IMG/VR virus record: IMGVR_UViG_3300031730_000199
Span: 1 to 32,399 of that record
DNA: 32,399 bases
Reading direction: 5' to 3' (one strand)
DNA from: a virus
A program made the position numbers and the translations under genes. Each line of letters opens with the position of its first letter. The stretch's first letter is position 1. Of this stretch, positions 6,384-29,924 are shown one piece after another. The notes beneath the pieces are model-generated. The model had not been told where the DNA came from. It did no database searches and was given only the letters and a program-made list of their open reading frames with translations.

Positions 6384-6611
6384 ATGAACAACTCCGCAAC
6401 CGAACGCGAACAGGCGCTGCGTTGGCTGATTGCCAACCGGCGTCAGGATGTCTCCATCGAGCAGGCGGTGCGCGTGGTGTGCGCGGTGCTGCCCCGCGAT
6501 CTCGCAACGATGCAACTGCTGCGTCGTATCGCCGAAGAAGAGGATGGCAAACAACCCGCCGTGCCCAAACTCAACTGGCGGTCACCTCCAGGTCTGCCGC
6601 CTCGCGGGTAG
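6384..6611 (+). CDS. Hypothetical small protein, 75 aa
   Basis: Begins MNNSATEREQALRWLIANRR and is helical (LATMQLLRRIAEEEDG) with a proline-rich tail. No family is recognised. It lies 20 bp after the preceding gene and is likely co-transcribed with it. Its last about 40 bases overlap the end of the methyltransferase gene on the opposite strand (stop at 6571), so the two transcription units converge here. Confidence 0.5.
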   Translation: MNNSATEREQALRWLIANRRQDVSIEQAVRVVCAVLPRDLATMQLLRRIAEEEDGKQPAVPKLNWRSPPGLPPRG

Positions 6612-7818
6612 CCTTCTTGCCGGTGAAGTCCTCCCACCGGCGCACGATCACATCGGCGTACTTCGGATCCAACTCCATCAACCGGGCGCGGCGGCCGGTC
6701 TTCTCTGCCGCGATCAAGGTGGTGCCCGAACCACCGAAGCAGTCCAGCACGGTGTCGCCGGGCCGGCTGGAATTGCGGATTGCCCGCTCCACCAGTTCGA
6801 CCGGCTTCATCGTTGGATGCAGATCGTTCTTGTGCGGCTTCTTGATGTGCCACACGTCGCCCTGGTCGCGGTCGCCGCACCAGTGCCGGCTGGCGCCTTC
6901 GCGCCAGCCGTAGAGGATCGGCTCGTACTGGCGCTGATAGTCGGCGCGGCCGAGCGTGAACGTGTTCTTGGCCCAGATGATGAAGGTGGACCACTTGCCG
7001 CCGGCCGCACGGAACGCGGACTGCAGGGTGTCCAGCTCGCTCGAACTCATCGCCACGTACACCGCCCCGTCGCAGCTGGCCAGCGCCGGGCTCAGCGCGT
7101 CGGTCAGGAACTGCTCGAACCCATTGCCCAGGTTGTCGTTCAGGATCGCGCGGTTCTTGCCGCCCAACTTGTCCTTGGGCGTGTTGGCGTAGTTCACGTT
7201 GTAGGGTGGATCCGTAAAGACCATGTCCACCTGCTCGTCTCCGAGCAAGCGCTCGTAGCTCTCAGCCTGCGTCGAGTCGCCGCAGAGCAGGCGGTGTGGG
7301 CCCAGCACCCAGACGTCGCCAGGACGCGAGATCACCGGGGTCTGTTCATCGGCCACTTCCGGTACGGCGTCCTCATCCGTCCGGCCCTCGGCTGCGCCGT
7401 CGTCAGCCAGCAAGTCGGCCAGTGCATCGGCATCGAAGCCGGTGAGCGAGAGGTCGTAGTCGTCGTCCTGCAGGGCCGCCAGCTCAACACGCAGCAGCGC
7501 ATCGTCCCAGCCAGCGTTTTCGGCGATGCGGTTGTCCGCGATCACCAGTGCCCGGCGCTGCGTGGGGCTCAGGTGCTCCAGCACCACCACCGGCACAAGG
7601 TCCAGCCCGAGCTTCTGTGCGGCGGCCAGGCGCCCGTGGCCGGCCACGATCACGCCGTCGGCACCGGCCAGGATCGGATTGGTAAAACCGAATTCGACAA
7701 TCGAGGCTGCGATCTGGGCGATCTGCTCGACCGAGTGGGTGCGGGCGTTCCTGGCGTAGGGCAGCAGCCTGGTGATGGGCCACTGCTCAATCTTGCCGGC
7801 CAGCCAGGAGACCGTCAT
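6571..7818 (-). CDS. ParB-like domain/DNA methyltransferase fusion (D-P-P-Y type)
   Basis: A 415-residue protein. Residues about 10-135 are a ParB/Srx-like domain with GVIVAGHGRLAAAQKLG at 55-71. The C-terminal half is an amino-methyltransferase of the beta order: catalytic DPPY (203-206) comes before the AdoMet site DCFGGSGTT (359-367), with HPTMKPVEL near 334. DPPY points to N6-adenine methylation. A phage enzyme of this kind would modify its DNA against host restriction or in a regulatory way; no restriction partner is present. The ATG overlaps the stop of the upstream paralogue (ATGA), so the two are coupled. The start was chosen for that overlap; a longer frame upstream is not coding. 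Confidence 0.92.
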   Translation of the reverse strand: MTVSWLAGKIEQWPITRLLPYARNARTHSVEQIAQIAASIVEFGFTNPILAGADGVIVAGHGRLAAAQKLGLDLVPVVVLEHLSPTQRRALVIADNRIAENAGWDDALLRVELAALQDDDYDLSLTGFDADALADLLADDGAAEGRTDEDAVPEVADEQTPVISRPGDVWVLGPHRLLCGDSTQAESYERLLGDEQVDMVFTDPPYNVNYANTPKDKLGGKNRAILNDNLGNGFEQFLTDALSPALASCDGAVYVAMSSSELDTLQSAFRAAGGKWSTFIIWAKNTFTLGRADYQRQYEPILYGWREGASRHWCGDRDQGDVWHIKKPHKNDLHPTMKPVELVERAIRNSSRPGDTVLDCFGGSGTTLIAAEKTGRRARLMELDPKYADVIVRRWEDFTGKKATREAADLEVTAS

Positions 7819-9215
7819 GGCGCGGCCTCCTTCGCCTGCTGGCGCCGCGCCGCCACCGCCTCGAAGTCCTGACCCGTGCCCTGAAGCGTCACCGGCACGC
7901 CGGGGAAGTTCTGCTGGAAGCGCTTGATGGCAACGTCCACGTACTCCGGTGCGATTTCCATCGCACGGCACGCGCGGCCGGTGCGCTGAGCGGCCAGCAT
8001 CGTGGTGCCGCTGCCGCCGAATGGCTCAAACACCACGTCGCCTGAGTCCGAGTACGCATCGATGATGAACTCGGGCAGCGCGACAGGGAACACCGCTGGG
8101 TGGTCGATGTCCTGGCCGATCTTTCCCTTGTGGCGCATCACGCGGATCACCGAGTCGGGGATGCGCATGTCCTGCGTGGGCTGGCCCTTGTGGGCCCATC
8201 CGTTGACCGTGCCATCTTTGCTGCGCATCGCCGTGGACGAACCATCGGCGCGCAGGTGCGATTCCTGGCCCGCGTGCTTGCAGGGCACGGTCTTGTGTGG
8301 CTTGCGAGTGTGCCGGTTGAAGTGGAAGATGAACTCGAAGCTCGGTGCCAGGCGGCCTTGCCAATCGCCCGGCATCCCCGGCCCCTGGTCCCAGACGTAC
8401 CAGGCGAAGCGCCGCCAGTCCTGTGCGCGCATCCAGCCGAGCCAGCCGTCCCAGTACGGGATCACCTCGTTGTCGCGGTGGATCAGGCCGAGGTTGACCA
8501 GCACCTGGCCGTCGTCTGCCATCGGTACGGCGGCGAACACACCACGCATCAGGGTGTCCCAGTCGCCGGCACCACCGGTGGTGTAGTCGCGTTGTTTGCC
8601 GTAGGGCGGCGACGTGAAACACAGCCGGGCCTGTTCGCCCTGCATCAGCGCGGCGACCACGGCAGGGTCGCAGGCATCGCCGCAGACCAGGCGGTGCGAT
8701 CCGAGCACCCAGACATCGCCCGCGCGGGACACTGGCACGGCAGGAGCCGGCGGGACATCGTCAGCGGCCTCGGAGTCTTCGTCCTGCTCCACGTCGCCGT
8801 CACCACCCGCCACGTCATCGGCCAGCAGGGCGTCGATCTCGGCGTCCTCGAAACCGGTGAGCGCCAGGTCGTAGCCGGCCTGCGACAGCTCGGCAAGTTC
8901 AAGCGCCAGCAGTTCATCGTCCCACCCCGCGTCGAGTGCCAGACGGTTGTCCGAGATGACGTAGGCGCGCTTCTGCGTGGGCGACAAGTGCCCCAGTTCG
9001 ATCACCGGCACTTCGTCCAGCCCCAGCTTGCGCGCCGCAGCCAGCCGACCGTGACCGGCGATCAGGCCGTTGGCGCCATCGACCAGCAACGGGTTCGTCC
9101 ACCCATACTCGACGATGCTGGCGGCGATCTTGGCCACCTGCGCGTCGGTGTGGGTGCGCGGATTGCGGGCGTAGGGAATCAGCGCCTCGACCTTGCGGTA
9201 CTCGACGTGGAGCAT
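7815..9215 (-). CDS. ParB-like domain/DNA methyltransferase fusion (T-S-P-P-Y type)
   Basis: A 466-residue paralogue of the downstream gene. The ParB-like domain (about 5-130) has GLIAGHGRLAAARKLG at 50-65. An acidic linker (about 132-153, rich in D and E) leads to the methyltransferase, with TSPPY at 201-205 and FEPFGGSGTT at 396-405. The S-P-P-Y form is seen in N4-cytosine and some N6-adenine enzymes, so target base and sequence differ from, or cannot be inferred from, the neighbour. The ParB-like domain probably helps bind DNA or a nucleotide; ParB-like domains bind CTP in other proteins, which is only a possibility here. There is no clear Shine-Dalgarno sequence before the ATG. Confidence 0.92.
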   Translation of the reverse strand: MLHVEYRKVEALIPYARNPRTHTDAQVAKIAASIVEYGWTNPLLVDGANGLIAGHGRLAAARKLGLDEVPVIELGHLSPTQKRAYVISDNRLALDAGWDDELLALELAELSQAGYDLALTGFEDAEIDALLADDVAGGDGDVEQDEDSEAADDVPPAPAVPVSRAGDVWVLGSHRLVCGDACDPAVVAALMQGEQARLCFTSPPYGKQRDYTTGGAGDWDTLMRGVFAAVPMADDGQVLVNLGLIHRDNEVIPYWDGWLGWMRAQDWRRFAWYVWDQGPGMPGDWQGRLAPSFEFIFHFNRHTRKPHKTVPCKHAGQESHLRADGSSTAMRSKDGTVNGWAHKGQPTQDMRIPDSVIRVMRHKGKIGQDIDHPAVFPVALPEFIIDAYSDSGDVVFEPFGGSGTTMLAAQRTGRACRAMEIAPEYVDVAIKRFQQNFPGVPVTLQGTGQDFEAVAARRQQAKEAAP

Positions 9216-16890: not shown

Positions 16891-17154
16891 TCACGAGTAC
16901 GCCCGGGTGAAGGTCGAGTAGCGCGCAACGCGCCGCTCGAAGGCTTCGACCTCGGAGATCAGGTAGGTGACACGGGCGCCGAGCTTGCAGAAGACCGGGC
17001 CGAGCTGTTCTTGGCGCCAGCGGCGCAGGGTCTTGACCGAGAGCCCCCAGCGGGTGGCGAGTTCGGTTTCGTCGAGGGCCAGGCGCGCGGGCTCTGCTTG
17101 CGGGCGCTGCTGGGCATGCCGTGCAGGTTTGTGAATCGGGACTTGGACTTGCAT
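16891..17154 (-). CDS. Helix-turn-helix protein, first gene of the replication operon
   Basis: An 87-residue protein. LDETELATRWGLSVKTLRRW (about 26-45) is an HTH of the MerR/AlpA kind, followed by a wing (LGARVTYLISEVEAFERRVA). The start is ATG 17154, with AAGGAGG nine bases upstream; an in-frame ATG at 17184 lacks this. Being the first gene of the minus operon, and adjoining the four-repeat array at 17204-17244, it is a candidate regulator of its own promoter or of the divergent gene. That link is inference. Confidence 0.8.
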   Translation of the reverse strand: MQVQVPIHKPARHAQQRPQAEPARLALDETELATRWGLSVKTLRRWRQEQLGPVFCKLGARVTYLISEVEAFERRVARYSTFTRAYS

Positions 17155-17203
17155 TTCGATGTGCCTCCTTGATGAATAGGGCACATCGAAGTCTCCGCAC
17201 GGA

Positions 17204-17244
17204 TTTGTGGTCCGTTTGTGGTTCGTTTATGGGGCCATTTATGG
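17204..17244. promoter_or_regulatory. Four helically phased TTTRTGG repeats
   Basis: TTTGTGG at 17204 and 17215, then TTTATGG at 17226 and 17238. The spacings are 11, 11 and 12 bp, so all face one side of the helix. They lie between the HTH gene (start 17154, minus) and the second Cas4-like gene (start 17337, plus). This looks like an operator or iteron array; no promoter hexamers were firmly identified around it. Confidence 0.7.
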
Positions 17245-17336
17245 TTCTGCCGCAGCCCTCGGTTTGCGGCGTGGCTGTTCGACTCGGACTGCTGAACGGT
17301 GCGACTTATTGGCGCGGTCTCGGGCAAACTTCCGCT

Positions 17337-18236
17337 GTGCGAACGCCATCCGTCACTTCAATCGAACCACGCGGATCGCAGGGCCGTGCCCCAACCAAAA
17401 CGCCCTGGGAACGCTTCGCCCTGGATGTCCTGCCGGTGACCTACATCGCCGAGCAGTGCTACTGCGAACAGCGGGTGCACCTGTGGCTGAAGAAGCCGAG
17501 TTCGATGGTGTCGATTCCGCGTGAGAAGGAGATGCTCGGGGGCCCGGCACTTGCCCTGCGGCACGCCGCAGACGCGGGGCTCACCTTCCACGCGCAAGCC
17601 GCCGCGCTTTCCCGGCCTGTCACTCAGACCACGCTTCGCAAGGTCCTTCGGTCAGAGCCGTCGGTGGTGTTGGTCGAGTCGCCGCTGCAGGCCCTGTTCG
17701 AGGGTTTTCCCATCACCGGGATACCTGATGCGGTGCACTTCGAGCAGGCAGTGGCGCGCTGCGTTCTCGACTACAAGGTCACCGACTCGAACCAGTTGCA
17801 GATGAGCCACCGCGTGCAGTTGTGGCTGTACGGCTGGCTGTTGCAAGAGTCCAGCTTTAAGTTGTCCGATGCCCTGATGGTCAGCGTGCTTGTGCCCAGC
17901 GCGAGCGCGGTCGCCTTCGAGAAACTTAACGAGGTCGAGCGTCAAGACTTGGCGGTGACGGTGCACCACCATGCTCGCGCCGTCGTCGATGGCGAGCCGG
18001 AGCGGGAGAACTGGTACGTCAAGAAGCTGGCGTTGTCCGATGGGTTCTGGGTGCGGTTGCGCATCTTTCGGTATGACCGGCGAAAGGCCAAGCGCGAGTT
18101 GGCGTTCTTCGCGCAGTACTGGAGAGGTGAACGTGCGGCGATTCCATCTAAAAACTTGCGCAAGTGCCGCGTGTGTCTCTACAACAGCACGGGCGCGTGC
18201 AAGAAAGCCCTCGTGCCCTTTGAGGGCGCTCCGTAG
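17337..18236 (+). CDS. Second PD-(D/E)XK nuclease, Cas4-like
   Basis: About 299 residues. Cysteines C41/C43 near the start (IAEQCYCEQRVHLWL) and KCRVCLYNSTGACKKA at the C-terminus suggest an iron-sulphur cluster. Catalytic motifs are GIPD (D131), VLDYK (D145, K147) and Q161 to Y165. The start is uncertain: I use GTG 17337, because the protein's conserved part begins just after it; ATGs at 17230 and 17240 fall within the repeat array. It is transcribed away from the operon that holds the other Cas4-like nuclease (only the shared motif plan links them), and converges with the unknown gene ending at 18436. Its substrate cannot be told from sequence. Confidence 0.82.
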   Translation: MRTPSVTSIEPRGSQGRAPTKTPWERFALDVLPVTYIAEQCYCEQRVHLWLKKPSSMVSIPREKEMLGGPALALRHAADAGLTFHAQAAALSRPVTQTTLRKVLRSEPSVVLVESPLQALFEGFPITGIPDAVHFEQAVARCVLDYKVTDSNQLQMSHRVQLWLYGWLLQESSFKLSDALMVSVLVPSASAVAFEKLNEVERQDLAVTVHHHARAVVDGEPERENWYVKKLALSDGFWVRLRIFRYDRRKAKRELAFFAQYWRGERAAIPSKNLRKCRVCLYNSTGACKKALVPFEGAP

Positions 18237-18435: not shown

Positions 18436-19392
18436 TCATGGTTTGCGGCGCACCCTGTACCGCGCCCGCTGGGCCTTCTCGATCACATCTTCGCGAGCGG
18501 CCACGCCGCCGAAGGCATCGTCGAACGACTGGTAGCCGGTGTTGGCCAGCGCGTTGACCTCGGCCCACGACAGTTCCGGCGGCGCCTTGTTTTCCACACC
18601 CCACATCGTCTTGACGATCTTGGCCCGCTCGGGCGACAACTCGCGCGACTGCTTGAAGTGGGGCAGTCTCAGGCGCAGGCCCTGCAGGAACTGCTCAGGC
18701 TCGGGAACACTGGACGCCACCCGGCTGCGCAGAACCCGCTCGAACGCTGGCGCATCGAACCGAGCCTGGCCCTGGTCGTCCAGGCCGATGAAGTCGTTCA
18801 GCACGCGCGGCGCATGGACATGCCATGGTTCGGCGGCGACCGCCCGTAGGAGCAGGACGATCCCGCCGCACGGCCAGATCGGGTCATTCAGGACCGCTCG
18901 GAGTGCCTCCACCGGCGCCCGCGCCCACAGCCGGGCCACGAACACCGGGACCCAGTCGTCGCTCCCGGCGACGCGGGCCGCGCCCAAGTGCCACAGGTGG
19001 TCCGGTACCCGAGCCGGCTGTCGAGAGCGGTCGCGCCGCTCGATGCCGATCCAGTCCGCCAGATCGTCCAGCCAGGCCTGCACGTTGAACGAGTAGACCG
19101 CGATCTCCTCCAGCGCTTGCGTGAGCCTGCAGGGCCGATAGCCTGGTGCCGTGTAGCTGAACGTGCCGGCCTCTTCGTCGATCTCGACTTCCACGTCGAT
19201 CTCGTCGTCAAACAGCGGTACCGGGATGTGCGACAGGTGGCCATGCGGAACAATCCAGCGCCGCTGCAGGAATGGCTGCGCCCGGCTGAGCAACTGGGGC
19301 GCGCAGATCCGCTCCTGCGGGCTGCGCACCCGCTCCATCGTGGACAGGAACTGCTCAAACAGGCAGCCCGGCTGCATCACGCCCGAGGGCAT
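18436..19392 (-). CDS. Hypothetical protein, last gene of the immunity block
   Basis: About 318 residues, acidic and rich in Trp and Pro in places (for example VQAWLDDLADWIGIERRD; IWPCGGIVLLLRAVAA). It has no recognised domain, signal peptide or clear membrane segment; a beta-rich part at about 50-95 includes DDEIDVEVEIDEEAGTF, and the rest is helical. The start is set at ATG 19392, where GAGG lies six bases upstream and overlaps the stop of the 466-aa gene. ATG 19413 and GTG 19419 are possible. It is probably translated together with the 466-aa gene, so they may work as a pair. I do not recognise the function. Confidence 0.6.
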   Translation of the reverse strand: MPSGVMQPGCLFEQFLSTMERVRSPQERICAPQLLSRAQPFLQRRWIVPHGHLSHIPVPLFDDEIDVEVEIDEEAGTFSYTAPGYRPCRLTQALEEIAVYSFNVQAWLDDLADWIGIERRDRSRQPARVPDHLWHLGAARVAGSDDWVPVFVARLWARAPVEALRAVLNDPIWPCGGIVLLLRAVAAEPWHVHAPRVLNDFIGLDDQGQARFDAPAFERVLRSRVASSVPEPEQFLQGLRLRLPHFKQSRELSPERAKIVKTMWGVENKAPPELSWAEVNALANTGYQSFDDAFGGVAAREDVIEKAQRARYRVRRKP

Positions 19393-19400
19393 CTGCCGCC

Positions 19401-20801
19401 TCAGTACTCCCATGCGCACCCCAGCCGGACGAGCTGCGCGAAGACCAGGTCCCGGTCTGCCTCGGTCTTGCAGCGGTCGCTCAGCCCGTTCGGTGCGCGG
19501 ACCTCCACCGTGACGGTGCGCGCCCGGCGCTGGGCCTGGCGCGCAAGACGCAAGGACAGCTTGACCTCCAGGATGTCATAGCCGACGAAGTCTGCAAGCC
19601 CGTAGTCCTCGCGCGCCACGTCGTAGACACTGCGCTCTTCATCGCGATGCCGCCGGATGCGCAGGTCGCTCTGCACGATGCGAGTCATCGAGTGGCCGCG
19701 GAACGGGACCTCCCGGGTGTGCGACCTGGACACGACGAGATGCTGGATCGCGATGTCTTCGATGCCATCGATGCGGTGGGTCTTGAGGCGCGCCAGCATG
19801 CCCGCGTCTGAGAAGCCGATCAGTTCGAATTCGCGCATCGGCATGGTGCGGATGTCGCCGCTGCCGCCCAGCACCACGTCACGGAACAGCGCCGCCAGCG
19901 CCGGCCGACTGGCCTTGTCGTCGCAGAAGATGCCGAGCGCGCCTTGCCCAGGCTGCCAGGCGAAACGGACCTGGGTCACGGCCGGTTCGTCCCGCTCGAT
20001 CACCTCGCCGTCATCCAACTGCTGGTAGTGCACCCGCTTGCCGTTGAACAAGGCGCTGAGCGTGTAGAGCGTGACCGGCTCGCCAGGCTGGGCCGCATCG
20101 CGGCGCACGAACGCTTCGATCACGATGTCCTCCGGATCGATCTGAGGAAACATCGCCACCAGGCCCGCCCGCAGTGCCGCCTGCGTGTCGTCGTCCAGCA
20201 GCGGTTGCACGTCCTTGGGACCGAGGTAGTGGCTGGAGTACTTGCCGGCCTGCGCCTGGCGCAGCATCTCCTGGCGGGTCTCGGCATGGTCGAAGCAGCG
20301 GTCCTTGGATCCGGCGATGCACTCCTGACCCAGGTACAGCCACAGGGCCAGGGTGAACTTGTCGTCAGGCACCGGGATGCTGGCGCCGCTGTCCGTGGCA
20401 GCGGGGCCGGCGTCGTCCAGCACCTCACCCATGGCCAGCGCGCCGGATTCGTCGCACAGCAGCACGATGCGTTCGGCTGCACGCTCCAGGCGGGCCTGGA
20501 TGGCGATTGAGAAATCCGCGACCGCCGCGAACACGGCATTGCGCGAAGCGACGGCAAGCGGGCCGACGGCCTCGACCAGCGGTGCCACCGAGGCCGGACT
20601 GCCGGTGGCATGCTCCAGCAGGGTTTGCAGCAGGGCAGGGCGCCGCGCCCGGCGTACCAGCTTGACGAAGTGCTCCATGTGGGCCAGCCGATCCGGCCCC
20701 TCGTCACGGGTGCGGGCCCGCGCCTTCTTCTCAGTCTCAGGCATCAGCGGCGCCGCCGCGGGGAGTTGTTGTTGTTCGACGGAGGCGGCCGTGGTCGGCA
20801 T
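19401..20801 (-). CDS. Hypothetical 466-aa protein
   Basis: No family is recognised. The first about 40 residues are low-complexity and charged. Residues about 40-110 are helical (EHFVKLVRRARRPALLQTLL). The middle (about 150-330) is alpha/beta, with FDHAETRQEMLRQAQAGKYS and QVRFAWQPGQGALGIFCDDK. The C-terminal third is basic and strand-rich (ILEVKLSLRLARQAQRRART; TVTVEVRAPNGLSDR). The last part resembles a nucleic-acid or partner-binding sheet, but this is only an impression. It has its own probable promoter and leader after the terminator at 20855-20882, with AAGG 9 nt before the ATG. It is coupled to the 318-aa gene. Its place next to repressor and protease suggests phage immunity or exclusion. 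Confidence 0.6.
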   Translation of the reverse strand: MPTTAASVEQQQLPAAAPLMPETEKKARARTRDEGPDRLAHMEHFVKLVRRARRPALLQTLLEHATGSPASVAPLVEAVGPLAVASRNAVFAAVADFSIAIQARLERAAERIVLLCDESGALAMGEVLDDAGPAATDSGASIPVPDDKFTLALWLYLGQECIAGSKDRCFDHAETRQEMLRQAQAGKYSSHYLGPKDVQPLLDDDTQAALRAGLVAMFPQIDPEDIVIEAFVRRDAAQPGEPVTLYTLSALFNGKRVHYQQLDDGEVIERDEPAVTQVRFAWQPGQGALGIFCDDKASRPALAALFRDVVLGGSGDIRTMPMREFELIGFSDAGMLARLKTHRIDGIEDIAIQHLVVSRSHTREVPFRGHSMTRIVQSDLRIRRHRDEERSVYDVAREDYGLADFVGYDILEVKLSLRLARQAQRRARTVTVEVRAPNGLSDRCKTEADRDLVFAQLVRLGCAWEY

Positions 20802-20854
20802 GCAGTGCTACCTTTCAGATTGAATGCGCGATTGCGCGAGTGGTTAACAGTCGA

Positions 20855-20882
20855 GCGAAAGAAATGCCGGCACGCGGCCGGC
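20855..20882 (-). terminator. Intrinsic terminator after the ImmA-like gene
   Basis: On the minus strand GCCGGC (20882-20877), loop CGCGT, GCCGGC (20871-20866), then ATTTCTTTC. The stem with a U-rich tail lies about 20 bp after the stop at 20903 and would separate the HTH-ImmA transcript from the downstream 466-aa gene. Confidence 0.6.
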
Positions 20883-20902
20883 GGGGATTCAGTGAACTGG
20901 GG

Positions 20903-21730
20903 TCAGCGGCGAGCGTCGTTGCGCGGTGCGGAGGGTGGCAGGTAGCCGTAGCGCTCCATGCGGACTTCGATGAAGCGCCGGTGCACGCCGAAGCGCGGCG
21001 CCAGGGCCTTTTGCAAGGCCTCCACGGCACCGGCCTGACCCTCGGCAGTCAGCTGCAATGACGCACCCGGCAGGTCCGGATCCAGTGAAGGGCTGTGCTG
21101 GATCTGCACCCCGTGCGCCGCGGCCAGGTCCTCGATCGCGCGCCGCAGGGCCAGTCGCGGCACGAGCAGGGAGCCCATGAACTCGTTGGCGCGTAGTTCG
21201 GCAAAGTGGACCTCGCGCGGGATCTGAAGCCCAGGCGCGGCCGCTGCTGCCAGATGATCGGCATCACGCGTCGTGGTGCGGTAGGCCTTATGCGCCCGGG
21301 GATCCACGTCGTCGAACAAGCCGGGCCCGCGCGCCGCGGCGGCAATCCAACCCGGGGCATCGAAGATGGCATGCCCCAGTTCGTGCGCGAAGGTGCTGAG
21401 CATCAGCGCGTCGCCGGATTCCGTCGCCACCGGCGAGATGGCCAGCACGGCGGCGTCCGTCCCGGCGTGGGGATCGAACTCGCACACGCCCAGCACCGGC
21501 TGGCCTTGTTCGTCAGTGACCGGGTGCTCGGTGTCCACCCACAGATCGAAGGCGATGCCGTTGATCCGCAGGCCGTCCAGGCCCTTCAGGGTGGCCAGCG
21601 GGATCGCATCGGTCTGTGCCGTGACGAGCTGCAGGCGGGCCTGCGCCGCGACGCGCTCCACTTCAGAATGCTTCAGGTACCGGGGCAGCTTGCGGTCGCA
21701 GCACCGGTAGTCCAGGGTCAGCACCGGCAT
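20903..21730 (-). CDS. ImmA/IrrE-family metallopeptidase
   Basis: A 275-residue protein. The zinc motif HELGH is at 116-120 (preceded by ALMLSTFA), and E178 in FAELRANEFMGSLLVP is the likely third ligand. Members cleave or inactivate phage and integrative-element repressors of the XRE class, thereby inducing the element, as in the ICEBs1 ImmR/ImmA pair. The gene starts one base after the XRE gene's stop, so both are co-translated. That tight coupling to an XRE repressor supports the repressor-protease role here; the substrate is inferred. Confidence 0.88.
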   Translation of the reverse strand: MPVLTLDYRCCDRKLPRYLKHSEVERVAAQARLQLVTAQTDAIPLATLKGLDGLRINGIAFDLWVDTEHPVTDEQGQPVLGVCEFDPHAGTDAAVLAISPVATESGDALMLSTFAHELGHAIFDAPGWIAAAARGPGLFDDVDPRAHKAYRTTTRDADHLAAAAAPGLQIPREVHFAELRANEFMGSLLVPRLALRRAIEDLAAAHGVQIQHSPSLDPDLPGASLQLTAEGQAGAVEALQKALAPRFGVHRRFIEVRMERYGYLPPSAPRNDARR

Positions 21731-22009
21731 TCACTGGCCCCCAGCGCTCTGGCGGCGGTACATGCGAACCACGGCACCCACGTCCTGCTGCATGTCCGGC
21801 GGCAGGCGCCGGGCCTCGATGAACGCCTCGTCCGGGTCCTCGCCCAGGATCTCGGCCGCATTGCGGATCAGGTCGTCCTTGGGGGGCTTTTCCATCTCGC
21901 GCTCGATGCGTGACCAGTACGCGGGCGAGATGTCCAGGCGCCGGGCGAAGTCGTTCATCGCGATGCCCTTGGCGTCCCGCTTCTGCCGGATGTATGAGCC
22001 GAATCCCAT
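21731..22009 (-). CDS. XRE-family repressor-like HTH protein
   Basis: A 92-residue protein beginning MGFGSYIRQKRDAKGIAMND, with the XRE helix-turn-helix at about 5-60 (ARRLDISPAYWSRIEREMEK). The remainder is a short helical tail, so it lacks the long C-terminal domain of CI-type, RecA-cleaved repressors. Induction would therefore need an outside protease, which the next gene supplies. GAGG lies seven bases before ATG 22009. Its promoter overlaps an SOS box. Confidence 0.87.
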   Translation of the reverse strand: MGFGSYIRQKRDAKGIAMNDFARRLDISPAYWSRIEREMEKPPKDDLIRNAAEILGEDPDEAFIEARRLPPDMQQDVGAVVRMYRRQSAGGQ

Positions 22010-22046
22010 GCGATGACCTCGTTGCGTGATTAGTGAACGGAGAGAA

Positions 22047-22062
22047 CTGTATAAATATACAG
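22047..22062. promoter_or_regulatory. LexA (SOS) box overlapping the repressor promoter
   Basis: CTGTATAAATATACAG is a perfect inverted repeat of seven bases with a two-base centre and keeps the CTG-N10-CAG form of the beta/gammaproteobacterial LexA site. On the minus strand it covers the -10 element of the repressor promoter. It could also be the repressor's own operator. Confidence 0.75.
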
Positions 22063-22074
22063 GTGTGCTGTCAA
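22048..22074 (-). promoter_or_regulatory. Promoter of the repressor-ImmA operon
   Basis: -35 TTGACA (22074-22069) and -10 TATACA (22053-22048), with 15 bp between, read on the minus strand. The spacing is a little short. The expected start point gives a leader of about 30 nt before ATG 22009. Confidence 0.6.
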
Positions 22075-22203
22075 CAGGCACTGCGTGGGGTGCCGTCCGG
22101 GCGTGCGGCTCACCGGCTTCGGTGCCGATTGCCCTGCGTTGCCATCCTGTTCAGGGATTCCGGCCGAGCATCCTGCCCGTTGCAATTCCCCGGATCTGTC
22201 CCG

Positions 22204-22422
22204 ATGAACATCGAACTCGATGCCCCCGCCGAGATGCCGGCCGGCGCACGCGCCGCCGAGATCATGGCCATCCTGGCCCGCGCCATCGTGCGGACCCTGG
22301 TGGCACCGGACGGCACGCCGGAGGCCGGCGCGGCCACTTGCCGCAAAGAGGCGGTTGGCCTTGGCTTTTCGGCCAACCAGCGCGTTCATACAACCCCTTC
22401 TCAACCGGAGCCGTTGTGCTGA
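22204..22422 (+). CDS. Hypothetical small protein before DUF2924
   Basis: A 72-residue protein beginning MNIELDAPAEMPAGARAAEI, with a helix MAILARAIVRTLVAPDG. Short proteins of this kind, with an ILARAIVR-like helix, often precede DUF2924 genes, as I recall. Its last third (GFSANQRVHTTPSQPEPLC) is the translation of leader element F and is probably not functional sequence, so the gene and the leader overlap. The stop overlaps the GTG of the DUF2924 gene. Evidence that it is a real gene is moderate. Confidence 0.5.
   Translation: MNIELDAPAEMPAGARAAEIMAILARAIVRTLVAPDGTPEAGAATCRKEAVGLGFSANQRVHTTPSQPEPLC
22353..22386 (+). promoter_or_regulatory. Leader element copy F with covarying hairpin
   Basis: GGTTGGCC (22353-22360) pairs with GGCCAACC (22371-22378) around a ten-base loop. 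Boxes CTTGGCTTT (22360-22368) and AACCAGCGCGTT (22375-22386) keep the 9-6-12 layout. Where the second box differs from the others (AACC instead of GAAC), the 5' arm differs to match. The GTG of the DUF2924 gene follows 29 nt later. Confidence 0.8.
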
Positions 22423-22886
22423 ACGATCTCAAGACGAACGACCTGCAGGCGTCGATCGCTGCCCAGGTGGCGGGCCTGCCGCACCTGCCGATGCAGGAAC
22501 TGTGGGTGCTGTGGGACCGCTACTTCTCGCGCCGGCCGGAGCGGCCAAACCGCGACTTCCTGGCCGCGCGCATCGCCTACAAGCTGCAGGAGCAGGCCTT
22601 CGGCGGCCTGGCGGCCGAGACGCGCCGGCGCCTGGAGGCCATCGGCGCGAAGCATTCCAAGATCAAGGTGCGTGCCAAGCCGCGCGAGATCAGTTTCGCG
22701 CCGGGGACCGTCCTGCTGCGCGAATGGGGTGAGCGGGAGCACCGGGTGGCAGTCACCGCCGAAGGGCTGTTCGACTACGAGGGCCGCTCGTTCAAGAGCC
22801 TGACCGCCGTGGCGCGGCACATCACCGGCACGCAGTGGAACGGGCCCTTGTTCTTTGGCCTGCGCGGCGCGCGGGGGGCGGCATGA
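22416..22886 (+). CDS. DUF2924 domain-containing protein
   Basis: A 156-residue protein beginning VLNDLKTNDLQASIAAQVAG from a GTG, with GGAG five bases upstream. The conserved DUF2924 core runs about 22-150: LPMQELWVLWDRYFSRRPER, then YKLQEQAFGG, LREWGEREHRV, FKSLTAVARHITGTQWNGPL and a terminal FFGL. The second half resembles a small DNA-binding beta/alpha fold. The family is usually found directly before large serine recombinases in phages and integrative elements. The stop overlaps the recombinase ATG (ATGA). Its role in recombination is not established. Confidence 0.88.
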   Translation: MLNDLKTNDLQASIAAQVAGLPHLPMQELWVLWDRYFSRRPERPNRDFLAARIAYKLQEQAFGGLAAETRRRLEAIGAKHSKIKVRAKPREISFAPGTVLLREWGEREHRVAVTAEGLFDYEGRSFKSLTAVARHITGTQWNGPLFFGLRGARGAA

Positions 22887-24274
22887 GCGGGCTCACCAAA
22901 GAGAGCGTCCTCAGCAAGCCGCGCAAGCGCTGCGCGGTCTATTGCCGGGTGTCCTCGGACGAGCGGCTGGACCAGGAGTTCAACTCCATCGATGCCCAGA
23001 AAGAGGCTGGCCATGCCTACGTGGCCAGCCAGCGGGCCGAAGGCTGGATTTCGGTCGCGGACGACTACGACGACCCTGGCTTCTCCGGCGGCAACACCGA
23101 ACGTCCGGCGCTCAAGCGGCTGCTGGCCGACATCGAGCGCGGCTTGGTCGACATCGTGGTGGTCTACAAGATCGACCGCCTGACACGCAGCCTGGGCGAC
23201 TTCTCCAAGATGGTGGAGGTGTTCGAGCGCCAGAGGGTGTCGTTCGTGTCGGTCACCCAGCAGTTCAACACCACCACCTCGATGGGCCGGCTGGTGCTCA
23301 ACGTGCTGCTGTCGTTTGCGCAGTTCGAGCGGGAGGTCACCGGCGAGCGCATCCGCGACAAGATCGCCGCCAGCAAGCGCAAGGGGATGTGGATGGGCGG
23401 CATGCCGCCACTCGGCTACGACGTGCGGGATCGCATCCTGATCGCAAACGACGCCGAGGCGGCGGTGGTGCGGCGCATCTTCGAGGAAATGCTGACCCTG
23501 GGATCGCCCACGCAGATCGCGGCCGGCCTCACCGCCGAGGGGATCACGACCAAGGCGTGGACCACCCAGGACGGCCAGCACCGGCTCGGCGGGCGCATCG
23601 ACAAGAAGTTCCTGCACAAGCTGCTGCGCAACCGCGTCTACCTGGGGGAGATTGCGCACAAGGGGGCCTGGTACCCCGGCGCGCACGCGGCCATCATCGG
23701 CCAGGACCTGTGGGACCGGGTGCACGCCGTGCTGGCCCGGGACGGCCACGCCCGCTCGGCCGACACCAAGATCCGGTCGCGCACGGACGCCTTGCTCCGG
23801 GGCCTGCTCTACGAGCCCTCGGGGGAGCGCATGTATCCGACCTACACGAACAAGAACGGGCGCAAGTACCGCTACTACGTGTCCAAGTCCGAGAGCCGGT
23901 TCGGCGCGCCGGGCAAGGGCTATGAGCGCCTGCCGGCCCCTGAAATCGAGGCGGCGGTGATCGCGCAGATCCGGACGGTGCTGGGCAGCCCGGAGGCCAT
24001 CGCCGCGGTGGTGCGCCACATCCAGCGCGATGGCGCCCCGGTCGACGAGGCCACCACCGTGATGGCGATGAGCCGGCTCAACGACGTGTGGGACCAGTTG
24101 TTCCCGGTCGAGCGCCACCGCATTGCCAACCTGATGATCGAGCGGGTCGACCTGGTCCATGACGGCGAGGCACAAGGCATCAAGGTGACGTGGCAGGAAC
24201 TGGGCTGGGACGCCCTGATCGGCGAGTTCGTGCCGCGGGGGATCGGCGCGGAACTGCTGGAAGTGGAGGGTTGA
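22883..24274 (+). CDS. Large serine recombinase, probable integrase
   Basis: A 463-residue protein. The N-terminal resolvase domain begins CAVYCRVSSD (catalytic S24) with IVVVYKIDRLTRS and the helix TGERIRDKIAASKRKGMWMG. The recombinase domain follows (PPLGYDVRDRILIANDAEAA, then LRNRVYLGEIAHKG). The third region (LLRGLLYEPSGERMYPTYTN) lacks the CxxC pairs of the usual zinc ribbon. It catalyses integration and excision at att sites by four-strand cleavage with covalent serine-DNA links. Its genomic target is unknown; an attachment site should lie nearby. The small overlapped genes on either side suggest a single integration operon. Confidence 0.94.
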   Translation: MSGLTKESVLSKPRKRCAVYCRVSSDERLDQEFNSIDAQKEAGHAYVASQRAEGWISVADDYDDPGFSGGNTERPALKRLLADIERGLVDIVVVYKIDRLTRSLGDFSKMVEVFERQRVSFVSVTQQFNTTTSMGRLVLNVLLSFAQFEREVTGERIRDKIAASKRKGMWMGGMPPLGYDVRDRILIANDAEAAVVRRIFEEMLTLGSPTQIAAGLTAEGITTKAWTTQDGQHRLGGRIDKKFLHKLLRNRVYLGEIAHKGAWYPGAHAAIIGQDLWDRVHAVLARDGHARSADTKIRSRTDALLRGLLYEPSGERMYPTYTNKNGRKYRYYVSKSESRFGAPGKGYERLPAPEIEAAVIAQIRTVLGSPEAIAAVVRHIQRDGAPVDEATTVMAMSRLNDVWDQLFPVERHRIANLMIERVDLVHDGEAQGIKVTWQELGWDALIGEFVPRGIGAELLEVEG

Positions 24275-24636
24275 TGGACACCTCGCTCGAAACCTTTGTG
24301 CCCCTGCAGTTCAAGCGAAAGAAGGGGCAATGGCTGGCCGATTCGGGGACATCCGTGCACGACGTCCGGATCCTCGAGGCCGTTGCCCGTGCACTGCACT
24401 GGTACTCACTCCTGGACTCCGGTGCGTTCAACGGTGTGGCCGAAATCGCGCGTGCTGAAGGGTTGATGCCAACGACGGTCGGCAGGCTGCTGCGGTTGGC
24501 AAGGCTGGCCCCAGACATCATCGAGCAGTTCATGGCGGGCAGCCAGCCTCGGCGAGTCACCCTGCTATGGCTGATGCGTCACGACATTCCGGCGCTTTGG
24601 GCCGAGCAGCGCCAGATGCTTGAGATCTTCAAATAG
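24274..24636 (+). CDS. HTH-like protein linked to the serine recombinase (paralogue 1)
   Basis: A 120-residue protein beginning MDTSLETFVPLQFKRKKGQW; its ATG shares one base with the recombinase stop. A central HTH-like part (VAEIARAEGLMPTTVGRLLR, then LARLAPDIIEQFMAG) occupies about 57-91. It shares the LETF[VI]P start, the HW..LL..G and LARLAP segments and a C-terminal PALWAEQRQM with the next gene. Proteins of this kind often lie behind phage serine recombinases; a recombination-directionality or accessory role is possible but unproven here. Confidence 0.7.
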   Translation: MDTSLETFVPLQFKRKKGQWLADSGTSVHDVRILEAVARALHWYSLLDSGAFNGVAEIARAEGLMPTTVGRLLRLARLAPDIIEQFMAGSQPRRVTLLWLMRHDIPALWAEQRQMLEIFK

Positions 24637-27773: not shown

Positions 27774-27797
27774 GGCGGCCGTTCAGCGCCGGCCGCC
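27774..27797. terminator. Convergent-gene hairpin, possible bidirectional terminator
   Basis: GGCGGCC (27774-27780) and GGCCGCC (27791-27797) form a 7-bp stem between the Calx-beta gene and the SPFH-like gene, partly inside the latter's last codons. No U-tract follows on either strand. Confidence 0.4.
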
Positions 27798-29924
27798 GGA
27801 CGGCGCCGGGGTCTCGTCCGCATCACCGTGGGACGTCCGTGCGTTATCGGGCGCCGGCAGCCAGGGCAGGTCGTCGCGCGTCGCCGGTACCGTCTTCGGC
27901 GCAAGGGCCGACGAAGCACGTTCGGCAGACAGTCGCGGCATGCGCGTGCCCAGATCTTGGCGCAGAGTTTTGGCCACCTCCCTGCCTTCGTCGCTCTCCG
28001 GGTCGTCCAGCGCATCGCGCTCGCGCGCACCCAGGCTCTTGATGAGCGCGATGCGGTTGCCGTCAAGCGCCTCGCGCTCCTTGCGCTCGTGCTCGAGCGC
28101 AAGCCGGGCCTCGTCGAGCGCGGCATCGCGCACGACCAAGTGCTTGGCCTTGCGCGTTGCCAGCGCGGTGATGTCGGCGTCGGTGTCCAGCCTGCGCAAG
28201 GCCCGTACCTCGATCGACAGGCCGAACTCCTTGCGTATCGCGTCGCCGGCCAGGCGCTCGGCCCACGCGACGATCTGCGTATCGTTGGAAGCGCTGGTCC
28301 AGTGCTGCGCCAGATCGGGGCCCATCGCCATGCGACCTTCCAGCACATTCTTCACGCGCTGCCGGATGTCTGCCAGCTCGAGCGCGATGGCGATGCTGCG
28401 CCGTTCCTCGGCAGACCACGCGCCTGCGGGCACCTGCACTTCCAGTCGCGTGGCCATCACGCGCATGCGCGTCTCGGTCAGTGTCGACTCGCTGCGATAG
28501 CCGAAGTCCTTGCTCTCGAACTGTTCCCAGCCGGCCGCCGTCATGTCGACCACCTCGATCGTGCCGGCGATAGGCACGATGTCGGCCTCGCCGCGGTTGT
28601 ACTGCGGCTTGATATCGGCTTGGAAGTCGACAGTCTGGCCGCGCAGCGCCTTGAAGCGCAGCGCATCCTCGGTCGGTGCCTGCCGGATGTTGACGATTTC
28701 CGAGTTCAAGCCGTAGTCGGCCAGCCGCTTGACGATGGCATCCTCGAGCGCCGGCTTGACCTTGTCCTCGAAGTGCAGATTGAAGTCCTGATGGTCGAAG
28801 CGCTGCACCACGTCGCGGCAAATCTGCCTGACGCGGTCTGCGATAGGCTGTTGCACGTCCAGCGCATCGGGCACGACCAACAGGTGCAGCCGGGAGACGT
28901 TAGGCCCCAGCCGGGTCTGCAGCGAGATCGCGAACTGCACCTGACCGACGGCGTTCTTCAGCTCGTACTTCTGCTGGTCGGCGCCAATGTCCACGCGCAC
29001 CGGCTCCAGCAGCTTCAGCGCCGCGATGTCGGGCAGGCTCTGAAACATCTGTACCTTAAAGCCGATCGTGCGCGCCTCGTCCTCGATGCGCTGGCGCATC
29101 TGCTTCTCGATGGAGTCTTCGCCACGCGAGAAGTGCTGCACCACGTCGTAGTAGCGGCGCGCGAACAGCAACTCCTTGACGGCCTCGCCGATGGCGCGCG
29201 ACATCGCGGCGCGCACCTCGGCATCGCCATTCAACCCGCTCTTCCTGTAGGCCTGGTAATTAGCCAGCCGCAGCAAGGCGGTGGTCTCGGCCATGCGGTC
29301 ACGGCTGCTGTCGGCGAGCGTGAAATGGTCGGCATTGGGCGCTGTGCGGCTGACCTCCACCTGCAACGGTGGTACGTTGCGCAACTGCAGCCCGATGCGG
29401 AAGTGTGCGCCGCCCAGCGCGCGGCGCACTCGTTCGCTCACGCCCTTGTCGAGATCTACGGACTCGCCGATGCCCGTGGAGGTGCGTTGGAAGATGTCCA
29501 ACAGATTGTCGTCACGCTTGAGCTGCTCGCGAAGCATGGTCATCTCGTCGTTCAGCGCGCCGCTGATGAGCTGGTAGAGCACCTCGCCGGGACTGGGCGC
29601 CCCGGACAAGGTCTCGACGAGCCGGTACGCCTGCATGTCCTCGTTGGCTTGAATTACGAACGAGGCGTCGAAGTCCAGATCGACCGCGTTGGTGCCTTCG
29701 GACCAGCGGAATTTCCAGTCCTGGACCTGCTTGGGCACCGTGAACTGCTTAACGAAGTAGTGGACCTCGCCACGGCGGCCGATCAGACCCCCCAAGAGGG
29801 TCTTTCTGTACGGTCCGGCGCGCTTGTCCGCGAACACGACCCGGTGCCCCGCGCCGTGAGCCTGCTCGCTGAACGACTCGGCATTCACCACGCGCACCAG
29901 CTCGTCGATCACATGTTCCGTCAT
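27783..29924 (-). CDS. Large SPFH/band 7-like protein
   Basis: A 713-residue protein. The N-terminal part (about 20-105: VFADKRAGPYRKTLLGGLIG; WKFRWSEGTNAVDLDFDASF) looks like an SPFH core. Three later stretches with a helix-glycine-strand pattern (RTIGFKVQMFQSLPDI; LADYGLNSEIVNIRQA; KEFGLSIEVRALRRL) look like repeated SPFH C-terminal elements. The end (about 590-713) is charged coiled coil and disordered. No signal peptide or membrane span is seen. SPFH proteins form ring assemblies on membranes. Start 29924 has AGGAGA five bases upstream. It is the second gene after the 806-aa gene. The domain call is a pattern reading and could be wrong. Confidence 0.6.
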   Translation of the reverse strand: MTEHVIDELVRVVNAESFSEQAHGAGHRVVFADKRAGPYRKTLLGGLIGRRGEVHYFVKQFTVPKQVQDWKFRWSEGTNAVDLDFDASFVIQANEDMQAYRLVETLSGAPSPGEVLYQLISGALNDEMTMLREQLKRDDNLLDIFQRTSTGIGESVDLDKGVSERVRRALGGAHFRIGLQLRNVPPLQVEVSRTAPNADHFTLADSSRDRMAETTALLRLANYQAYRKSGLNGDAEVRAAMSRAIGEAVKELLFARRYYDVVQHFSRGEDSIEKQMRQRIEDEARTIGFKVQMFQSLPDIAALKLLEPVRVDIGADQQKYELKNAVGQVQFAISLQTRLGPNVSRLHLLVVPDALDVQQPIADRVRQICRDVVQRFDHQDFNLHFEDKVKPALEDAIVKRLADYGLNSEIVNIRQAPTEDALRFKALRGQTVDFQADIKPQYNRGEADIVPIAGTIEVVDMTAAGWEQFESKDFGYRSESTLTETRMRVMATRLEVQVPAGAWSAEERRSIAIALELADIRQRVKNVLEGRMAMGPDLAQHWTSASNDTQIVAWAERLAGDAIRKEFGLSIEVRALRRLDTDADITALATRKAKHLVVRDAALDEARLALEHERKEREALDGNRIALIKSLGARERDALDDPESDEGREVAKTLRQDLGTRMPRLSAERASSALAPKTVPATRDDLPWLPAPDNARTSHGDADETPAPSGGRR

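Follow-up and report, generated by a model that had tools for sequence, protein, structure and literature searches.

A LexA-type box in the core promoter of a putative xre–immA lysogeny switch in a tailed-phage record

Upstream of a small putative repressor gene in the phage DNA described here lies an A/T-rich palindrome, and the question raised by this locus is whether the element is read by the host SOS regulator LexA, by the phage repressor itself, or on behalf of a neighboring operon, and what its occupancy would mean for lysogeny. The window, that is, the whole stretch of 32,399 nucleotides that was analyzed, is a tailed phage or prophage record (terminase, primase), in which the region of 25.4–32.4 kb looks like host DNA, as inferred from its gene content. 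A flank protein encoded at 27783–29924 showed 43% identity to a Caballeronia replicon at best and had no match in sets of 274, 399, and 401 genomes, and an 806-aa flank protein matched no plasmid or viral contig. The promoter and the two genes behind it comprise the following elements.

22069–22074, minus strand: −35 hexamer TTGACA of the xre promoter, aligning with TTGAC(G/A/C) of relatives
22047–22062, minus strand: LexA-type (SOS) box, reading CTGTATATTTATACAG along xre transcription, assigned from the exact 16-mer at SOS genes and the matrix score
22046–22051, minus strand: −10 hexamer TACAGT, with a 17-nt spacer, overlapping the LexA box and aligning with TATGAT of most relatives
22022–22037, plus strand: putative XRE operator TTGCGTGATTAGTGAA, between the promoter and xre, with 1 mismatch to the TTGCGYGNNNAGTTAA motif
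21731–22009, minus strand: xre, putative repressor, a 92-aa helix-turn-helix (HTH) protein (Pfam HTH_31 and HTH_3 above cut-off; alignment), with the start codon at 22009
20903–21730, minus strand: immA, putative M78-like metalloprotease of 275 aa (HELGH ... RANEFMG)
20866–20882, minus strand: intrinsic terminator-like hairpin after immA, conserved in relatives
20832–20847, plus strand: second putative XRE operator TTGCGCGAGTGGTTAA, just before gene C, with 2 mismatches to the motif and a conserved position

The palindrome CTGTATAAATATACAG, a 16-mer at 22047–22062, occurs once in the window, and its dyad is broken at the two central bases only, giving 2 mismatches when read on the other strand. 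Between its CTG and CAG stand 10 bp made up solely of A and T, in a window whose G+C content is 63–74% per kb, which confirms the original prediction of an A/T-only palindrome in a GC-rich genome. No other exact CTGT-N8-ACAG, here with an A/T-rich center, is found in the window. By chance, matches to CTGTATAAATATACAG with up to 3 mismatches are expected at 0.02 per window (dinucleotide shuffles); CTGT-N8-ACAG was present in 0.15% of 100,000 sequences modeled on the 193-bp intergenic region, and CTGTAT-N4-ATACAG in none. The −35 hexamer had been claimed to lie just beyond the palindrome, as it does, at 22069–22074 on the minus strand, and the pair TTGACA/TACAGT is the only sigma-70-like promoter detected in 20700–22450, reading toward xre and immA. 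The box covers most of its spacer and overlaps the −10 hexamer, and is thus located within the repressor promoter, as had been proposed.

That the palindrome has the half-site layout of a LexA operator was also part of the original prediction, and is borne out by a pattern search with CTGTATAWWTATACAG in 120 Burkholderiales genomes, in which nine genomes carry one site each, all being this exact 16-mer, as compared with no site for the same pattern read backward. Eight of the nine are positioned 1–62 nt from the start of SOS genes, namely lexA, recA, umuD, and a Y-family polymerase gene (two sites each; the gene names were assigned by reading translations), and the ninth is separated by 114 nt from a divergent gene of integrase-like type (L037, Burkholderiales). 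Genomes containing related prophages carry CTGT-N8-ACAG or CTG-N10-CAG boxes at lexA, which read CTGTACGAAGATACAG, CTGTGATTTTATACAG, or are of a CTGG type, the latter occurring in one genome as the pair CTGGTTAAAAATACAG and CTGGTTGTTAATACAG. A matrix built from these four lexA boxes scored the window site at 20.1, higher than the boxes used to train it (17–18), and no other site in the window exceeded 8.8. Another box-like sequence, at 22068–22083, reached just 2.5 and was dropped. The motif CTGT-N8-ACAG has been described as that of LexA in most beta- and gamma-proteobacteria (PMC3323433). By its sequence, the palindrome is therefore a LexA-type box, with a motif of the Burkholderiales type that may not be the host's, and LexA control of the xre–immA operon is, at this level, well supported.

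The XRE protein, of 92 aa, consists of an HTH domain only, without a cleavage domain (Pfam), bearing out the earlier view that it is too short to be a RecA-cleaved repressor. The next gene, judging from its motifs and the gene order, encodes a putative ImmA-like HELGH metalloprotease, in keeping with the ImmA that had been noted there. Its match to Peptidase_M78 (E 0.0099) is below the Pfam cut-off, and it has no sequence match to solved structures or in named phages or plasmids; the zinc-site motifs HELGH and RANEFMG are invariant or nearly so across aligned relatives.

The pair is part of a conserved module (18436–22009 and 22204–24636), in which a recombinase and a gene that we take to be DUF2924-like are divergent from xre-immA-C-D-xis, and which is found in most of about 75 viral contigs. 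Its further members in the window are as follows.

22204–24274, plus strand: divergent integration operon of a small ORF, the presumably DUF2924-like gene, and a serine recombinase gene, conserved next to xre
22883–24274, plus strand: serine recombinase (phrog_95 integrase, E 1.5e-103)
19401–20801, minus strand: gene C, 466 aa, with a weak fold resemblance to RdgC/RexA
18436–19419, minus strand: gene D, up to 327 aa with an uncertain start, following gene C in nearly all relatives
16891–17184, minus strand: xis, small excisionase-like DNA-binding protein (phrog_66, E 1.3e-8), conserved after gene D

The conserved terminator stands between immA and gene C. Gene C has no family match and no match at the sequence level. 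Its model (mean pLDDT 77) gave E. coli RdgC as the top Foldseek match (E 1.2e-5, probability 1.00, with a low TM), followed by inner kinetochore CENP-N/Iml3 chains and then, weakly, lambda RexA (E 0.046), the fold matches having TM values of 0.14–0.22; phage RdgC proteins are among its best viral matches. RexA and RdgC have been placed in the same fold group, and RdgC lowers RecA-dependent LexA cleavage (PMC11077077). We take the RdgC/RexA-like character suggested by the model of gene C as a lead rather than an assignment. For gene D there is no family match, and its good model (pLDDT 89) gave no convincing fold match. In one relative (L068), xre, immA, and xis are kept, with gene C undetected and gene D partial. 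Phage AcaML1 (L002), looked at for its similar recombinase, has the recombinase module and xis in common with the window, but is without xre-immA.

Relatives of XRE were collected from both genomes and viral contigs, and those of ImmA from viral contigs; the two sets overlap. CTGT-N8-ACAG is present at the xre promoter in none of the 18 XRE loci with upstream sequence, the 79 ImmA loci yielded one weak box candidate only (L089, CTGCACAAAAAGACAG), and about 80 related loci altogether contain no convincing LexA box at the xre promoter. Most of them carry instead TTGCGYGNNNAGTTAA-like sites, located downstream of the promoter, in many cases ahead of the −35 hexamer as well, and once more before gene C; the site matching 22022–22037 keeps a constant spacing to immA in most relatives. 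The window has kept two of these three copies and lost the one upstream of the −35 hexamer, with the LexA box residing in the spacer and −10 region. Consensus LexA boxes are common in viral contigs, and six other contigs have a box with TTGACA at the same spacing; among the boxed sites examined, none stands beside an XRE/ImmA relative, and the exact box combined with the downstream XRE operator had no match in viral contigs. The box at the xre promoter is known from this one record, which precludes an argument for it from conservation. Because the relatives are without the box and have TTGCGYGNNNAGTTAA-like sites there, and because the upstream copy is lost in the window, this lineage most likely gained the box or brought it in. 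Being lineage-specific, it would be an add-on rather than the basic design of the switch, and through it the lysogeny switch of the lineage appears to have been coupled directly to the host SOS response.

Two alternative readings deny that the host LexA protein acts at this box. LexA motifs differ among some bacterial groups, and that of the Xanthomonadales likewise differs. A title cited in PMC8565304 refers to another LexA motif in some betaproteobacteria, and this box type may accordingly not be the host's, the box then being inert or used by another protein. We regard this as improbable, in view of the named module relatives being betaproteobacterial MAGs, with this type of box at the lexA promoters of four of those genomes, and of the modeled intergenic sequences, in which a site so near the consensus is unlikely to occur by chance. 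Palindromes in their own promoters are frequent binding sites of XRE regulators (PMC12565409), and the present palindrome does overlap the xre promoter; it is nevertheless highly improbable that it is XRE's own operator, serving autoregulation and resembling a LexA box only incidentally. About 80 loci with the same kind of XRE are devoid of the palindrome, although the recognition region ISPAYWSRIEREMEK is invariant in 12 aligned XRE proteins, whose HTH is highly conserved. The exact 16-mer, moreover, marks SOS genes elsewhere. The conserved HTH in relatives that lack the palindrome and have another repeated motif, two copies of which the window keeps, therefore argues against the palindrome being XRE's operator.

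The remaining alternatives accept a LexA site and assign it a different task. The recombinase operon (22204 onward) is divergent from xre wherever both are seen, and the ninth exact 16-mer in Burkholderiales is close to a divergent integrase-like gene. However, 141 nt separate the box from the first plus-strand gene, and no promoter-like site on the plus strand was found in 20700–22450, the sole promoter reading toward xre with the box inside it, making it decidedly improbable that the box mainly serves SOS-linked integration or excision. The site might also be real and do the reverse job, in that SOS would raise XRE beyond what ImmA removes, and immunity would be restored or deepened, with induction delayed or damped. 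This reading is favored by the position of xre directly behind the promoter that it shares with immA, by the retention of the XRE operator nearest xre, and by the terminator after immA, owing to which genes C and D need not rise. It appears unlikely on balance, as related ImmA-type proteases remove their repressor upon damage (PMC10904395, PMC12637031), and extra XRE would hence be cleaved.

We consider it rather probable that a host LexA operator is located in the core of the phage xre–immA promoter, in a lineage without the upstream XRE operator, and that DNA damage would bring about net induction through it. In the undamaged cell, LexA bound to the spacer and −10 region would block RNA polymerase, and XRE would occupy the operators of its own, one past the promoter and the other ahead of gene C. 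On DNA damage, RecA filaments would promote self-cleavage of LexA, opening the promoter for the production of more XRE and ImmA. The same damage is expected to activate ImmA and thereby to remove XRE: PprI and CapP, proteases of the same kind as ImmA, cut their repressors when activated by single-stranded DNA (PMC10904395), from which it follows that ImmA may open the XRE lock in parallel. Removal of XRE would then free genes C and D, along with the genes for excision and replication that lie on the same strand as these. According to this scheme, the two locks, which respond to one and the same damage by separate routes, would both have to be opened at once. We infer LexA binding in the host, repression by XRE, cleavage of XRE by ImmA, and the net shift to induction. 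It is plausible, as the original prediction held, that SOS induction would raise ImmA, also relative to XRE, and end lysogeny; however, because XRE would rise together with ImmA from the common promoter, the XRE operators are kept, and immA is followed by a terminator, the net effect on induction could vary in size and could even be neutral or opposite. A more elaborate version, which we put forward tentatively and consider rather doubtful as a whole, is a two-input gate, in which LexA and an ImmA-sensitive XRE guard one promoter and the operon would open only when the RecA/LexA and single-stranded DNA/ImmA routes both report damage. The operon would also lead to a protein of RdgC/RexA-like character with a possible feedback on RecA, and the LexA input would have been gained by one lineage as an XRE operator was lost.

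In the ImmR/ImmA, DdrO/PprI, and CapH/CapP systems, the gene for a small XRE-type HTH repressor is followed by that for an HExxH metalloprotease. The window pair has the same order of genes, and shows weak sequence similarity to the CapH/CapP models. PprI has been described as an SOS-independent route (PMC10904395), whereas in the window a LexA box is added to the promoter of the pair. LexA control of a prophage repressor region is already known. In CTX-phi, LexA acts with RstR and also controls rstR itself (PMC3323433), and CTX prophage induction requires LexA cleavage, according to the title of Quinones 2005 given in PMC4439123. As in the window, a host LexA box is situated in the promoter region of a small prophage HTH repressor, beside the repressor's own operators (PMC3323433). 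CTX-phi is, however, filamentous, with no ImmA-type protease mentioned, in contrast to a tailed phage with an ImmA-like gene on the boxed promoter, and the box of the window is absent from its relatives. In GIL01 of Bacillus thuringiensis, a phage promoter is likewise under direct repression by host LexA together with a phage factor, gp7 (PMC4551915), which acts on LexA without binding DNA, unlike the putative DNA-binding XRE with its own operator motif. The Gifsy prophages also have a repressor that is not cleaved through RecA, and its removal depends on a factor whose gene is under LexA control (PMC3121763); that antirepressor gene lies outside the immunity region and its product binds the repressor, whereas in the window repressor and putative protease share one LexA-boxed promoter.

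In a limited literature search, no description of an XRE/ImmA promoter with a LexA box was encountered, and the apparent graft of LexA control onto an XRE/ImmA switch is thus, on the sequence evidence, what seems new here. Damage sensing by LexA-gated prophages is usually regarded as distinct from that by ImmA-gated mobile elements; here, one promoter seems to combine the two. The box-free relatives form a natural before-and-after pair with the window, through which one can ask what benefit a phage derives from coupling the host SOS response to a switch already equipped with a damage sensor of its own.

Some minor features of the window were also observed. A block of about 30 nt at 22125–22154, before the recombinase operon, is conserved in many aligned relatives. 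Between gene D and xis, a Cas4-like nuclease gene occupies 17400–18236 on the plus strand, the corresponding gap being short in a relative (L003). CCATAAA/CCACAAA repeat units at 17200–17245, just upstream of xis, are present in that relative too. Finally, two adjoining genes at 6571–9215 each match phage DNA methyltransferase and ParB-like families.
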